From NCBI RefSeq assembly GCF_001468265.1, contig NZ_LNRZ01000005.1, positions 310,001 to 374,000 on the forward strand: a stretch of 64,000 nt of DNA, in the 5' to 3' direction. Shown in pieces: positions 24,415 to 52,979 of the stretch. Origin of the DNA: Sphingopyxis sp. H050. Lineage in GTDB: Bacteria; Pseudomonadota; Alphaproteobacteria; Sphingomonadales; Sphingomonadaceae. The notes beneath the pieces were generated by a model. The model saw only the letters and a program-made list of their open reading frames with translations, was not told where the DNA came from and did no database searches. Each line of letters opens with the position of its first letter. Position 1 is the stretch's first letter. Both the position numbers and the translations under genes were made by a program.

Positions 24415-24428
24415 CTTTCCTACAATAT
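24415..24428 (+). promoter_or_regulatory. Shared motif CTTTCCTACAATAT (copy 1)
   Basis: The 14-mer is identical to the one upstream of the holin/endolysin cassette (44654-44667, opposite strand) and differs by one base from 52282-52295. Here it lies in the 230-bp divergent spacer, oriented toward the caspase-Sel1 gene (ATG 138 bp further). It may be an operator or part of a promoter, with TACAAT as a -10-like core. The rest of the spacer 24337-24566 contains no gene I can support. Confidence 0.5.
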
Positions 24429-24566: not shown

Positions 24567-26285
24567 ATGAGGCGTTCGCGATATCGGGCGGCATGGGCCG
24601 CGGCACTTTTAGCGCTCGGCGGGCTGGCGTCCCCGGCCGCGGCGCAGCCAGCGGGCAGTTGCGGCACCGCCCCGCTCAAGGGCGATCGCGTCGCGCTGCT
24701 GATCGGCAACAGCGCGTACAACGACTGGGAATGGCCGTCGCTCAAGAACGCCGTGAACGACATCGACTATGTTTGCGACGCCTTCGCCAAGGCGGGCATT
24801 GCGCCGCGCATCGTTCGCAACGCCGACAAGGCCTCGCTCGACACGGCACTTGCGGAATTCGCGGCCGAGGCGAAGGGCGCCAAGTCGGTGATCCTCTACT
24901 ATGCCGGCCACGGCTTCGAATATGGTGGCCGCAACTGGCTGGTGCCGATGGATGCGCCCCCCGCGACCCGCCGCGCCGATGTCGAGAAGCGCTATCTTTC
25001 GCTCGAAGCGCTGGTGAAGCGCGTCGTGCCCACGGGCGCCTTCACCCTGCTGTTCGTCGATGCCTGCCGCACGCCGGAGCCGGTCGTGCGGATCGAGGAC
25101 GTCAATATCGCGGGCGGGGAGGCGGGATCCGCTCCGGTGGGTCTGCTCGATATCGGGCAGGGCGCGGTCTTCTATTCGACCGCCAAGGGCCGACCCGCGC
25201 TCGACTTCGCGCCGGTCGGGTCGCCAGTCAGCCCGTTCGCGGCCGCGGTGGTCAAGGAACTCGGGATCCCGGGCCTAGAAATCTCCGACTATTTCAAGGT
25301 TGTCGCGCGCGACGTCTACAAACGCACTTATGGCATGGAGAAGGGGCCGCAGCAGCCCTTCCATTATGGCAGCTGGTTCGACGATTATTATCTCGTCGCG
25401 CCCGCCGACGTGCCGGAGGCCGGCAAGCAAGGGGGCGGCTTCGGGTCCTTCTCGGCGGCCCCGCCCGCGCCGCCCACCCCGTCGCCCGCTGTCCGCGGCG
25501 CGATCAATCCGCTCGCGGATATCTCGCTCGACCGCCTCGCGATCGAGGACGAACCGGTGCTGGTCGCTGACGTGCTCTCGCGCCATCCGGTGGGGGAGGT
25601 GATCGGTCTCGCCGACGGTGGGAACGCGCTGGCGCAGCATCTGGCGGGCTATATGTTCTCGCTCGGTGTCGGGGTGAAGAAGGACGTGCCGCGCGCGCGG
25701 GCCTATCTCGAGAAATCGGCGGCGCAGAATTTCCCGGCCGGGCAGCAGGAACTTGCCTATCTCCTCCTCGAAAACGACCCGACACCCGAAAATGTGAAGC
25801 GCGCCCACGATCTCTATGTGGCCTCATCGAACGCCGGCTTTTCGAAGGCGAAGACGCATCTCGCCTATCGCCTCGCGTCGGGCACCTTCGGTCCTGCCGA
25901 TTTTGTCCGGGCGCAGGCGCTTTATAGCGAGGCGGCGGCGAAGGGGCATCCGGCCGCGGTTTTTGCGCTGACCTTCTTTCCCGACGCGCGGGCCGCCAAT
26001 ATGGCGCGGCTGCGCGCCATCGCCGATGCCGGCAACCCCGAGGGCAATCATTGGCTCTGCGAGGCGCACTATGCCGACAAGACGCTGGCGCAGGCGATCG
26101 AGGACTGCGGCGTCGGCGCGCGCGCGGGTTTCGCAGGATCGCGGGCCATCCTGGCGTGGGCTTATGCGAACGGCAGCGGTGTTGCGGCCGATGTCAAGGA
26201 AGCGGTCTTCTGGGCCAAGCTTGCGCGCCACCTGCCAGAGTTGCGCAAGGACCAGCGCGACCTGATCGCGGGGATCGGCGAGTAA
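24567..26285 (+). CDS. Exported caspase-domain (C14) protein with Sel1-like repeats
   Basis: The 572-residue product has a signal peptide (cleavage near PAAAQ, residue 27). The caspase-like domain (about 40-270) has RVALLIGNSAY, the catalytic His in LYYAGHGFEYGG and the catalytic Cys in LLFVDACRTPE. A Pro-rich linker (PAPPTPSPAV) leads to Sel1/TPR-like repeats (about 340-560, LAGYMFSLGVGVKKDVPRAR and AWAYANGSGVAADVKEAVFW). Bacterial metacaspase-like proteins cut after Arg/Lys and have been tied to stress, cell death and defence; the Sel1 part suggests partner binding. Because it is exported, an intracellular death role is less obvious. AGGAAA at 24555-24560 supports the start. Confidence 0.87.
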   Translation: MRRSRYRAAWAAALLALGGLASPAAAQPAGSCGTAPLKGDRVALLIGNSAYNDWEWPSLKNAVNDIDYVCDAFAKAGIAPRIVRNADKASLDTALAEFAAEAKGAKSVILYYAGHGFEYGGRNWLVPMDAPPATRRADVEKRYLSLEALVKRVVPTGAFTLLFVDACRTPEPVVRIEDVNIAGGEAGSAPVGLLDIGQGAVFYSTAKGRPALDFAPVGSPVSPFAAAVVKELGIPGLEISDYFKVVARDVYKRTYGMEKGPQQPFHYGSWFDDYYLVAPADVPEAGKQGGGFGSFSAAPPAPPTPSPAVRGAINPLADISLDRLAIEDEPVLVADVLSRHPVGEVIGLADGGNALAQHLAGYMFSLGVGVKKDVPRARAYLEKSAAQNFPAGQQELAYLLLENDPTPENVKRAHDLYVASSNAGFSKAKTHLAYRLASGTFGPADFVRAQALYSEAAAKGHPAAVFALTFFPDARAANMARLRAIADAGNPEGNHWLCEAHYADKTLAQAIEDCGVGARAGFAGSRAILAWAYANGSGVAADVKEAVFWAKLARHLPELRKDQRDLIAGIGE

Positions 26286-43561: not shown

Positions 43562-43975
43562 TTAGCTCTCGATCCCCTTGACCTTCCCCCATGCCCGCGC
43601 CGCGGTGTAGCCGAGATAGCCCGTCCCGAAGAGCGCGTAGAGCGGCTCAGGAATGCCGGCGAGATAGGCGTTCATGCCCTCGGCGATACCCTTTGCCATG
43701 TCGGGCCGCGCGGCGGCGATGAGGCCCATCGGGATCGCCCACAGCAGCAATGCATACATGACATAAAGGAAGCTCGGCCGCGCGCGGCTGGTCCAGGGGT
43801 CGGCGCTGCTTGCTTCGGCGACGATCGCGGTCATGCGCGTCTTGATCGCCTCCATTTCCTGGCTGCCTTCGAGCTTTAAAAGTTCGAGCTTGGCGCGGTC
43901 GCGCGCTTCGGGGTCGGGGATGATCTTGTCGATCAGCTTGGCGACGGGGCCGATCAGGCCTTCGATGATGCTCAT
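43562..43975 (-). CDS. GTA-type holin (3TM holin family)
   Basis: Holins perforate the inner membrane so an endolysin can reach the wall. The 137-residue protein has an N-terminal amphipathic helix (IEGLIGPVAKLIDKIIP), a charged coiled stretch (DRAKLELLKLEGSQEMEAIK), then hydrophobic segments (about 70-90 SFLYVMYALLLWAIPMGLIA; about 110-125 PLYALFGTGYLGYTAARAW). This matches the GTA_holin_3TM family, first described for the Rhodobacter capsulatus gene transfer agent. It follows the endolysin gene by 61 bp on the same strand. Confidence 0.83.
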   Translation of the reverse strand: MSIIEGLIGPVAKLIDKIIPDPEARDRAKLELLKLEGSQEMEAIKTRMTAIVAEASSADPWTSRARPSFLYVMYALLLWAIPMGLIAAARPDMAKGIAEGMNAYLAGIPEPLYALFGTGYLGYTAARAWGKVKGIES

Positions 43976-44036: not shown

Positions 44037-44606
44037 TCAGGCCTCGCCGATGCGGTTCGCGAGCCAGCCGTAGAGAAAGGCCTCCTGGCTGGGGCGGCGT
44101 TCGGCGAGCGCGATGTAGCGCTCACCCTGCAGCGCCTCCATCGCGCGCAGCAGGACGGTTTCGCCGCCTTTGCCGCGCGCTTTCAGGAAGCCGTCGAGCG
44201 CCGACAGCGTGCGCGGGCCGATGTCGCGGTCGACCGCAATGTCGGGATAGTCGCGCGCGGCGCGGTTGAGCGCGTTGAGCGCGCGCTGGAGGAAACCGGC
44301 TGCGGTGGCGGTTCCCATGTTGACGCCGGTATCGAACAGCTCGGCCGCGATCCTTGGTGCGCGCAGGGCCACCTTGTCGAAGCCGGGGCGCAGCCAATAG
44401 AGGCGGCGATAGATGGCGGCTGCATCGGCGCGAGGCAGTTCGCGCATGCAGCCTTCATAGCCCTGCGCGCGTGCCACCGCCTCGGTGATCCCCCAACAGG
44501 TCGGGCCGCCACGATCGGCGGGGTGGTTTACATATCGGCCTTCGCGGTCGATGACGGCATCGATCAACGCGTCGGCGTCGCTGATCGAGGGGTCGGGTCT
44601 TGGCAT
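44037..44606 (-). CDS. GH108 endolysin (N-acetylmuramidase) with peptidoglycan-binding domain
   Basis: The 189-residue protein has no signal peptide, as expected of holin-dependent endolysins. The GH108 domain (about 8-90) carries the catalytic Glu in DREGRYVNHPADRGGPTCWG and GITEAVARAQGY. The C-terminal half (DTGVNMGTATAAGFLQRALN, DRDIGPRTLSALDGF) is a PG_binding_3 domain. Domain order equals the RcGTA endolysin. The holin lies downstream and the shared 14-bp motif lies 47 bp upstream of the ATG. No capsid, portal or tail gene is in the window. Confidence 0.88.
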   Translation of the reverse strand: MPRPDPSISDADALIDAVIDREGRYVNHPADRGGPTCWGITEAVARAQGYEGCMRELPRADAAAIYRRLYWLRPGFDKVALRAPRIAAELFDTGVNMGTATAAGFLQRALNALNRAARDYPDIAVDRDIGPRTLSALDGFLKARGKGGETVLLRAMEALQGERYIALAERRPSQEAFLYGWLANRIGEA

Positions 44607-44653
44607 GATTCGCTCCTTTGGTTCTCGTAGATGTGATAACGAACCATATAGGA

Positions 44654-44667
44654 ATATTGTAGGAAAG
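44654..44667 (-). promoter_or_regulatory. Shared motif CTTTCCTACAATAT (copy 2, endolysin promoter)
   Basis: On the minus strand it reads CTTTCCTACAATAT, followed at once by TCCTATAT, giving two TTCCTA half-sites 11 bp apart, about one helical turn. It lies 47 bp before the endolysin ATG. On the plus strand, AGGAAAGGG at 44661-44669 also serves as the ribosome site of the oxidoreductase gene, so part of the match may be fortuitous. Confidence 0.5.
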
Positions 44668-51688: not shown

Positions 51689-52249
51689 TTAGAGGGTCCG
51701 AATCAGGCGCACGGCGATCGCCGCCCAGGGCGGGTTGCTGACGACCTGCTGGCGCTGACCGGTGCCGAACGGGAGCAGATGGAGCTTTTCGCCGTCGACG
51801 TTGAGCAGGCGGGCGAAGAAGAAGCGTCCAGCGGGCCGGGGGACGAGGATGTCGCGGTTGAGCGCGGTCGTCCAGTCGCCCTCGATCCGGCGGCACCAGA
51901 TTTCGTCGCCCGCGCGATAATCGCCGATCGACGAGGTTACGCGCACCGCGACCATGTCCTCGCCCGGCCGCGCGGTGAGCGCCTGTTCGACCCGCGTCGG
52001 CGCTTGCGCACCGTCGGCGCCGAGGTGCGCGGTTATGGTGAGCTGGGTATCCTGCGGCAATTGGACGAGCTCGGCGGCTTCGACCCCCAGCGCCTTGGCG
52101 ATGCGGTTCATCCAGCCCAATGACAGCGTTCGCGTGCCGGTTTCAAGGCGGCCGATCGTCTGTGCGGTCGTTGGCGGATCGCAGCGCTGGCCCACCTCCT
52201 CGAGCGTCAGGCCTTTGGCGCGGCGCACGGCGCGGATGCTGTTGATCAT
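51689..52249 (-). CDS. XRE-family regulator with S24-like C-terminal domain (phage/GTA repressor-like)
   Basis: The 186-residue protein has an N-terminal helix-turn-helix (about 1-62: SIRAVRRAKGLTLEEVGQRC, TIGRLETGTRTLSLGWMNRI). The C-terminal S24/LexA-like beta domain (about 95-186) shows SSIGDYRAGDEIWCRRIEGD and KLHLLPFGTGQRQ. Where LexA has the catalytic Lys this protein reads FFFARLLN, so self-cleavage is unlikely. It is divergent from the DUF6456 gene, with the shared 14-bp motif between them. Caulobacter RogA, a repressor of GTA activators, is also an XRE protein next to its targets; that parallel is inference. Confidence 0.8.
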   Translation of the reverse strand: MINSIRAVRRAKGLTLEEVGQRCDPPTTAQTIGRLETGTRTLSLGWMNRIAKALGVEAAELVQLPQDTQLTITAHLGADGAQAPTRVEQALTARPGEDMVAVRVTSSIGDYRAGDEIWCRRIEGDWTTALNRDILVPRPAGRFFFARLLNVDGEKLHLLPFGTGQRQQVVSNPPWAAIAVRLIRTL

Positions 52250-52281
52250 TGTCTATCCTTGAATAACCAAATCGGTTTCTA

Positions 52282-52295
52282 CTTTCCTACAAAAT
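52282..52295 (+). promoter_or_regulatory. Shared motif CTTTCCTACAAAAT (copy 3, XRE/DUF6456 spacer)
   Basis: It differs at one of 14 bases from the copies at 24415 and 44654. It lies 32 bp from the XRE start and 40 bp from the DUF6456 start, oriented toward DUF6456, as copy 2 is oriented toward the endolysin at a similar distance (47 bp). TTTCTAC just before it forms a partial direct repeat. Confidence 0.55.
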
Positions 52296-52335
52296 AATCC
52301 AATGTCAAGTGAGTCTTGCAACCAAGGAGAATCGC

Positions 52336-52818
52336 ATGACTGCACGCCGCCTCGACACGCGCATCCACCCGGACGACCGGCTCGATCCCGACAAGGTAGG
52401 GCCGCAAGTGATGCGGCATGTGACGGTGAATGTCGCGGAGAGCCCGATCGCCTGGCTTGCGGCGCGGGGGCTGTTGACCGGCGCGCAGTTGCAGGCCGGC
52501 GAGCGCCTGCGGGCCGATTATGAGCGCGCGGGATTGTCGGCGCGGGTGACGATGCGCTGGGATGCGGCCCCGCCGGCAAAGGGCCGCGGCGGCGCGCGGG
52601 CGTCGGACGCGTCGCTGGCGCGGATCGATGCCCGTCGGCGCTTTCATGCTGCGGTCGATCATGTCGGGCCCGGGCTTGCGGATATATGCTGGCGCGTGAT
52701 CTGTGCGGGCGAGGGGATCGGCGGCGCGGAGAAAGCGATGGGATGGCCTGCGCGATCGGGGAAGCTGGTGCTGGGGCTGGCGCTCGATCGGCTGGCGCGG
52801 TTTTACGGGATGGGGTGA
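52336..52818 (+). CDS. DUF6456-domain protein (GafA/GafZ-like regulator candidate)
   Basis: A 160-residue protein made almost wholly of DUF6456: SPIAWLAARGLLTGAQLQAG, AGERLRADYERAGLSARVTM, then a second half RRRFHAAVDHVGPGLADICW and WPARSGKLVLGLALDRLARF. DUF6456 occurs in alphaproteobacterial GTA activators of the GafA/GafZ type, where it takes part in transcription activation. Here no DNA-binding domain is attached, so a separate partner would be needed. ATG 52336 has AAGGAGA at 52324-52330. It is divergent from the XRE gene. Confidence 0.75.
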   Translation: MTARRLDTRIHPDDRLDPDKVGPQVMRHVTVNVAESPIAWLAARGLLTGAQLQAGERLRADYERAGLSARVTMRWDAAPPAKGRGGARASDASLARIDARRRFHAAVDHVGPGLADICWRVICAGEGIGGAEKAMGWPARSGKLVLGLALDRLARFYGMG

Positions 52819-52864
52819 GGAGGCCCAAGGTCCGCTCTCGACCGTTAGTCGCCGTCCCTTTTAT

Positions 52865-52937
52865 CGTCATCCCGGACTTGATCCGGGATCCACAACGGCG
52901 GTGCGGCTATGGATCCCGGATCAAGTCCGGGATGACG
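52865..52937. repeat. Palindromic repeat, family B, full unit
   Basis: The arms CGTCATCCCGGACTTGATCC (from 52865) and GATCAAGTCCGGGATGACG (ending 52937) are perfect complements over 27 bp with a 19-bp centre. It lies between the convergent DUF6456 and ABC-F genes. Confidence 0.85.
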
Positions 52938-52979
52938 AGGCTGGAGTAGGAACGGCCGCTTCCCACCCCAAAACGGACG

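Follow-up and report, generated by a model that had tools for sequence, protein, structure and literature searches.

Results

The divergent gene pair

The window, the whole 64,000-nucleotide stretch of Sphingopyxis sp. H050 DNA that was analysed, contains an XRE-type regulator gene and a DUF6456 gene that diverge from a common 86-bp spacer, an arrangement described in an earlier reading of the letters alone (the sequence-only reading) and borne out by the coordinates. Sphingopyxis is a soil and water bacterium, and the nearest named matches to the XRE protein are from Sphingopyxis sp. H073 (99%) and S. soli (97%). The pair and its spacer comprise the following features.

51689-52249, minus strand: XRE/S24-like regulator, 186 aa (HTH_31, E 1e-9; HTH_31 and HTH_3 above the Pfam cut-off)
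52250-52335: divergent spacer, 86 bp (85-139 bp in same-genus loci)
52265-52277: predicted XRE operator AACCAAATCGGTT, one of three exact genome-wide matches to AACCNWATNGGTT
52282-52292, minus strand: shared motif TTGTAGGAAAG (plus strand CTTTCCTACAA), with a −10-like TACAAA at 52288-52293; putative promoter element
52303-52308, minus strand: possible −35 (TTGACA) of the XRE gene, kept as TGTCAA in most same-genus spacers; putative promoter role, and a matching −10 would be weak
52336-52818, plus strand, from ATG: DUF6456-only, GafZ-like protein, 160 aa (PF20057, E 8e-43, residues 30-158)

No good −10/−35 pair was found for the DUF6456 and XRE promoters. The common motif that the sequence-only reading had placed in the spacer is most likely TTGTAGGAAAG, of which an exact copy lies at 52282 on the minus strand. 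Directly 3′ of the DUF6456 gene, an inverted repeat of the CCGGACTTGATCCGGGA type (52864-52940) resembles a dispersed repeat.

An AlphaFold2 model of the XRE protein (pLDDT 84, pTM 0.59) has an HTH at residues 1-66 and a second domain at residues 68-186 that matches LexA (3k2z_B, Z 10.2, r.m.s.d. 3.1 over 107 residues; 1jhh_B, Z 9.7). With the LexA catalytic motif taken, as we assume, to mark the Ser and Lys positions, the catalytic-Lys position is Ala or Gly in 33 of the 34 alignment rows (the frameshifted L125 row is unaligned there) and the catalytic Ser is not conserved. For these two reasons self-cleavage is unlikely, the Ser-Lys dyad of self-cleaving LexA/cI repressors being absent. A PHROGs search matched general repressor families, and the description of a phage-type repressor without the catalytic Lys agrees with this fold and alignment. 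The protein thus has the RogA-type architecture of an HTH plus a LexA-like domain without catalytic residues.

Since PF20057 spans residues 30-158 of 160, the DUF6456 protein consists of that domain only, as the sequence-only reading had it (an activator-type domain alone), and it is the single PF20057 match in its genome. In its model (pLDDT 75), residues 82-160 best resemble sigma region 4, with mostly sigma factors among the top rows at a Z of only 6.4, below the tool's safe level; this likeness agrees with the description of GafZ in PMC11150451. No relative of solved structure was found by sequence at E up to 1. Matches to three phage families whose function is unknown, phrog_21451, phrog_31864 and phrog_31762 (E 7e-7 to 1e-3), hint that the protein has phage-borne relatives. 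A tree of 58 DUF6456 domains places the window protein among gafYZ-adjacent and GTA-adjacent proteins, and a branch with support of 95/93 parts it from eight of the nine divergent DUF6456 rows; a grouping with non-GTA housekeeping DUF6456 proteins, which the sequence-only reading had named as counting against it, was not seen.

Spread of the pair and search for GafY

Sixty genomes were searched: that of the window, 35 of the same genus (36 with the genus label) and 24 of the same order. The XRE protein is matched in 50 of them (in G042 by the HTH only) and DUF6456 in 49. Among the best 80 of 141 named XRE loci, 78 have an adjoining DUF6456 match, which is decayed in L080 and L081 and broken in L125; the two loci of this set with no match are L122 (S. 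flava) and L123 (contig end). At the level of the family, DUF6456 was found in 103 of 119 genomes, and a divergent XRE gene stands beside it in all 27 newly fetched loci (L195-L221, the best-scoring among the 103 matching genomes), found with an XRE profile built from sequences that include those loci. A scan of the class found DUF6456 in 29 of 152 genomes.

The DUF6456 gene had been described as lacking a DNA-binding partner gene beside it, and this holds for the genome as a whole: a profile built from 12 GafY proteins gives a single match, which is DnaA, so that no GafY was detected and its relocation elsewhere in the genome was rejected. Neither a DnaA-like N-terminus nor a GafY partner is therefore seen for the 160-aa protein. 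Over the 60 genomes the best profile match is a DnaA-sized frame in 59, with none in G021; a short second match occurs in G018, a genome with 7% contamination, and at a contig edge in G059, while G055 has a weak one.

Outside the family, six loci (L167, L168, L169, L171, L172 and L175) have an XRE homologue within ∼1.5 kb of DUF6456, with the match covering most of the homologue. In these a gafY-like gene sits between XRE and gafZ (PF08299 in the two checked), and the six XRE/gafYZ spacers bear 6-5-6 dyads such as TTTGCGTAAAACGCAAA, TTAACGAAATACGTTAA and TGTACGCATTTCGTACA, the dyad of L172 being imperfect. In four further extra-family loci the XRE match is at HTH level only. From the six loci and their dyads, an XRE gene facing gafYZ is probably older than the order. 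DUF6456 frames elsewhere in the order are ∼250-310 aa long, and the simplest history would be that the order lost GafY and the family of the window then lost the N-terminal half of GafZ.

The predicted operator and the GTA promoter

The spacer dyad AACC-N5-GGTT is present in 47 of 48 loci whose XRE protein is at least 87% identical, the exception, L123, being a cut locus. In its strict form, AACCNWATNGGTT, it occurs three times in the 4.36 Mb of the genome: in the spacer, at the GTA promoter and at C13:62771. The reversed control gives one match, so about one of the three is expected by chance. In genomes outside the genus the count of the pattern does not clearly exceed that of the reversed control, and a loose version (2 mismatches) shows no enrichment in the window (6 versus 3.95 expected).

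The genome carries an RcGTA-like cluster away from the window, with its promoter at C6:9056-9103. Terminase, portal, protease and capsid homologues lie on C6 and homologues of later tail genes on C8, in the gene order of G057 and G024, with the contig break falling inside the cluster. The promoter core TTGACATCGTCACGCTGATATGGCACA (up to 3 mismatches) is found in 30 of 36 genus genomes, once each except in G003, and in none of the 24 others; its reversed control has no match. ACC-N5-GGT lies at −19 or −20 from TTGACA in all 30 promoters, which were chosen by core sequence and not by dyad, and this places the dyad centre near −50. The −10 (CACAAG) is weak. Between −35 and −10 the sequence hardly varies, and it is to this interval of the GTA promoter that the GafZ element was mapped in Caulobacter (PMC11150451, passages). 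The conserved leader that follows the promoter has a predicted hairpin of 13 pairs, of which five show changes on both sides, although some rows break several of the upper pairs and the covariation term is small. By analogy, the hairpin is a candidate target of GafZ-type antitermination.

Similar dyads precede GTA promoters in outgroup clusters, in four of five judged by eye; in the five outgroup loci fetched for these promoters the terminase starts within ∼1.3 kb of the DUF6456 domain. At the DUF6456 gene itself, seven of ten outgroup loci (same-genus L043, which gave no match, left out) carry TTTACC-N17-TATAAC (one TTTGCC, two N18) with the −10 running into ACC-N5-GG, a pattern, TATAACC-N5-GG, that was written after viewing the sequences. 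A −10 overlapping ACC-N5-GG is, on sequence grounds, the layout of a repressor site. Two other candidate elements were rejected 5′ of TerL: the Caulobacter motif GGAA-N4-TTCC (1 of 18 loci, ∼75 bp downstream of TTGACA) and DnaA boxes (1 of 18).

Other Sphingomonadaceae (L133, L136, L139, L143, L150, L203 and L215) have the CTTTCCTACA motif followed by GCC-N5-GGC, one-sided in L203, suggesting an operator that drifts along with its repressor. In several species (L311, L330, L359 and L345) genes that look by eye like small terminases lie outside the main cluster behind a promoter with motif and dyad; two that were tested have no Pfam match, and the copy in the window's genome (C1 near 9015) is short.

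Lysis genes and the shared motif

Some 8 kb from the spacer and within the window lie two lysis genes and their promoter. These are listed with the third copy of the shared motif.

43562-43975, minus strand: GTA holin (GTA_holin_3TM, PF11351, E 4e-33)
44037-44606, minus strand: endolysin (Glyco_hydro_108 and PG_binding_3, E 3e-26 and 1e-18)
44640-44656: half-degenerate predicted XRE operator of the lysis promoter with core AACCATATAGGAA; PWM 4.4, ranking fifth within the window
44657-44667, plus strand: shared motif TTGTAGGAAAG of the lysis promoter, exact copy
24415-24425, minus strand: shared motif TTGTAGGAAAG, third copy, upstream of a caspase-domain gene, where no operator was seen

In the lysis promoter region, CTTTCCTACAATATTCCTATATGGTTCG, the shared motif comes first and then a dyad, one half of which is poor, around the expected transcription start. 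CTTTCCT plus CCnATATGGTTC precedes the endolysin gene in 32 of the 33 same-genus loci that have an endolysin match, a count that leaves out G009 and G017 (no holin match) and L391 (no endolysin match); in the exception, L374, the endolysin match is partial and the site was seen in the PWM scan. By hand count, the site has the top PWM score in 28 of 34 same-genus loci, the exceptions being L369, L372, L384, L391, L395 and L397; the PWM is blurred, having been trained on 30 GTA sites cut at a fixed distance, eight of them one base off. Because the site in the window ranks only fifth, its assignment rests on conserved position. Strong operators were found 5′ of the holin gene in three other families (L399, ∼100 bp, score 27.0; L400, ∼80 bp, 24.8; L401, ∼700 bp, 23.4) and weaker ones near it in L402 (12.0) and L403 (17.4); the PWM scan gave no convincing operator near the holin gene in L404-L406.

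The window has the shared motif TTGTAGGAAAG three times without a mismatch, where 0.11 copies would be expected with up to one mismatch allowed, and none of 100 shuffles reaches three. Its six copies in the genome include these three, and the reversed control has none. Elsewhere in the genus the number per genome ranges from 0 to 15, with no copy in five genomes (G001, G002, G026, G027 and G031). Matches in L346, L348, L350 and L351 fall within coding frames, and we regarded them as chance occurrences. The third copy in the window lies upstream of a gene for a caspase-domain and Sel1-repeat protein (24567-26285), which is possibly a further GTA-linked member, or its motif is there by chance.

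Joint decay of DUF6456 and the GTA promoter

Five genomes (G010, G013, G016, G034 and G035) have a broken DUF6456 gene or none, in each case away from contig ends; in G013 and G016 the damage is a simple frameshift that could stem from a sequencing error. In four of the five the GTA promoter is absent, and in G016 insertion-sequence-like DNA comes after it. Among 30 genomes with an intact DUF6456 gene, the GTA promoter is missing from two (G012 and G015) and is followed by an insertion of this kind in two more, which makes the promoter absent or interrupted in 5/5 defective genomes versus 4/30 others. With kinship ignored, Fisher p values are 0.0014 for absence, 0.0004 with insertions counted and 0.026 for the TIGR02218 marker; G027, where DUF6456 is split over contigs, was left out. 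TIGR02218, found in 25 of 36 genus genomes, is on its own a poor GTA marker, and the promoter pattern was therefore used too. Similar-looking insertions lie directly behind the GTA promoter, separating it from the cluster, in three genus genomes, at L252, L271 and L274 (G016, G023 and G021).

Of these genomes, G010 and G013 have a broken endolysin gene, and in G034 and G035 the gene is more diverged. The XRE gene is whole in all five DUF6456-defective genomes (L070-L074), and for this reason XRE may have other work besides the control of DUF6456.

A proposed switch

We propose, with a probability of about two in three, that the pair is a GTA control switch in which a RogA-like XRE repressor acts on the activator, structural and lysis modules and DUF6456 is a minimal GafZ-like activator. 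The sequence-only reading had also seen a repressor-activator switch here, and that core is sustained by the conserved pairing, the dyad between the genes, the GTA cluster in the genome and the joint decay; its Caulobacter-like layout did not stand, and the predicted sites are not restricted to the spacer. XRE, a LexA-fold repressor probably unable to cut itself, would bind ATAACC-N5-GGTTAT dyads. Since the spacer dyad overlies the DUF6456 promoter region and the predicted XRE start, bound XRE would silence the DUF6456 gene and limit its own expression. At the dyad just 5′ of the GTA −35 and at the weaker lysis-promoter dyad, it would hold the particle and lysis genes down directly. Loss or titration of XRE would allow DUF6456 to be made, which would then act at the GTA promoter in the manner of GafZ, through the conserved −35/−10 block and without GafY, and would carry polymerase past the structured leader. 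Cleavage being absent, possible inducers are an antirepressor, dilution or a modified XRE. Because the predicted site recurs before the genes for the particle and for cell lysis, a single repressor may restrain the entire lethal programme.

A dyad centred near −50, as at the GTA promoter, is not an evident position for repression. XRE could instead be a dual regulator that represses DUF6456 and itself and, at the GTA promoter, helps polymerase or DUF6456 to bind, replacing the lost GafY. The fixed operator distance in 30/30 GTA promoters, the failure to detect GafY in the genome and the weak CACAAG, which suggests that help is needed, are all consistent with such a role; however, the lysis site, around the expected start, is in a repressor position and repressors are able to act from −50 too, and we regard this alternative as unlikely. 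Much less probable is a housekeeping role for XRE, with a purely local link to DUF6456 and with the GTA and lysis sites as by-products of a wider regulon: the persistence of XRE in all five DUF6456-defective genomes would fit, but a genome of 4.36 Mb with only three exact operators, two of them at GTA genes, and the close pairing with DUF6456 argue against it. That the pair is a relic of a lineage whose GTA is no longer made, with sites persisting through slow decay, accords with the broken parts in several relatives and is the least probable, given a promoter core within three mismatches in 30 of 36 genus genomes and the terminase, portal, protease, capsid and tail homologues of the genome itself.

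The proposed switch can be extended into a wider and distinctly more tentative picture, which we think has less than an even chance of being right: that in sphingomonads a cleavage-dead repressor sits on all three GTA modules beside a stripped-down DUF6456 without GafY, is kept after GTA loss as an antitoxin-like guard against leftover lysis genes, and perhaps also serves as a GafY-like upstream helper at the GTA promoter.

Discussion

GTA production kills the producing cell, and how lineages keep the GTA off is therefore a central question; its control differs between the two model species. The locus predicts a one-repressor design for this control. GafA homologues are already known from sphingomonads, in 196 of 208 surveyed genomes, and the order of the window's genome shows the strongest codon selection on GTA genes (both from passages of PMC9765227). 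Literature searches, covering listings and passages of some papers, found no study of GTA regulation in sphingomonads. Within these searches, the novel elements seem to be the occurrence of the pair in sphingomonads, the GafY loss and an operator set that spans three modules.

The closest known system is that of Caulobacter crescentus, in which RogA, like XRE, has an HTH and a LexA-like domain without catalytic residues and represses a DUF6456 (GafZ) activator of an RcGTA-like cluster, according to passages of PMC9632790 and PMC11150451. The layout was said to mirror that of RogA and GafYZ. It does not, because rogA (CCNA_00080) is not beside gafYZ (CCNA_01111/2) in Caulobacter (PMC9632790, passages); in sequence terms it mirrors the XRE/gafY-gafZ loci of other alphaproteobacterial families. 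The RogA motif GGAA-N4-TTCC differs from the predicted XRE dyad AACC-N5-GGTT. In PMC9632790, RogA ChIP enrichment is described only at gafYZ and CCNA_02002 and not at the GTA promoter, whereas the predicted XRE operator is at 30/30 GTA promoters. Caulobacter also has GafY, in contrast to the genome of the window, in which it is not detectable. Further XRE proteins of Caulobacter, RtrA, RtrB, CdxA and CdxB, repress gafYZ, and CdxB also represses the lysis operon lypABC (PMC10688885 and PMC13236601, passages). Caulobacter thus uses several paralogous XRE factors with RogA as the dominant gafYZ repressor, whereas the window's genome has one predicted operator type at activator, structural and lysis promoters. 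The lysis genes differ too: passages of PMC13236601 report no holin-endolysin homologues in Caulobacter, with LypABC under CdxB instead, whereas the window has a holin and an endolysin, and holin-endolysin release is described there for the GTA of Rhodobacter capsulatus.

The Hyphomicrobiales loci in which a DnaA-like gene precedes DUF6456 are similar in their short gafZ-like gene and in the regulator upstream of it, annotated as mucR or HTH (PMC9638019, passages), but in the window's genome both GafY and the N-terminal half of GafZ are missing. The DUF6456 protein resembles the C-terminal half of R. capsulatus GafA, a part that binds DNA and dimerises (PMC9638019, passages). GafA, however, is one 42-kDa protein whose DnaA-like N-terminus is needed for GTA promoters, and that part was not found in the window's genome. 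The 160-aa DUF6456 protein, in a genome without detectable GafY, is thus a natural test of the minimal requirement for GafA function.
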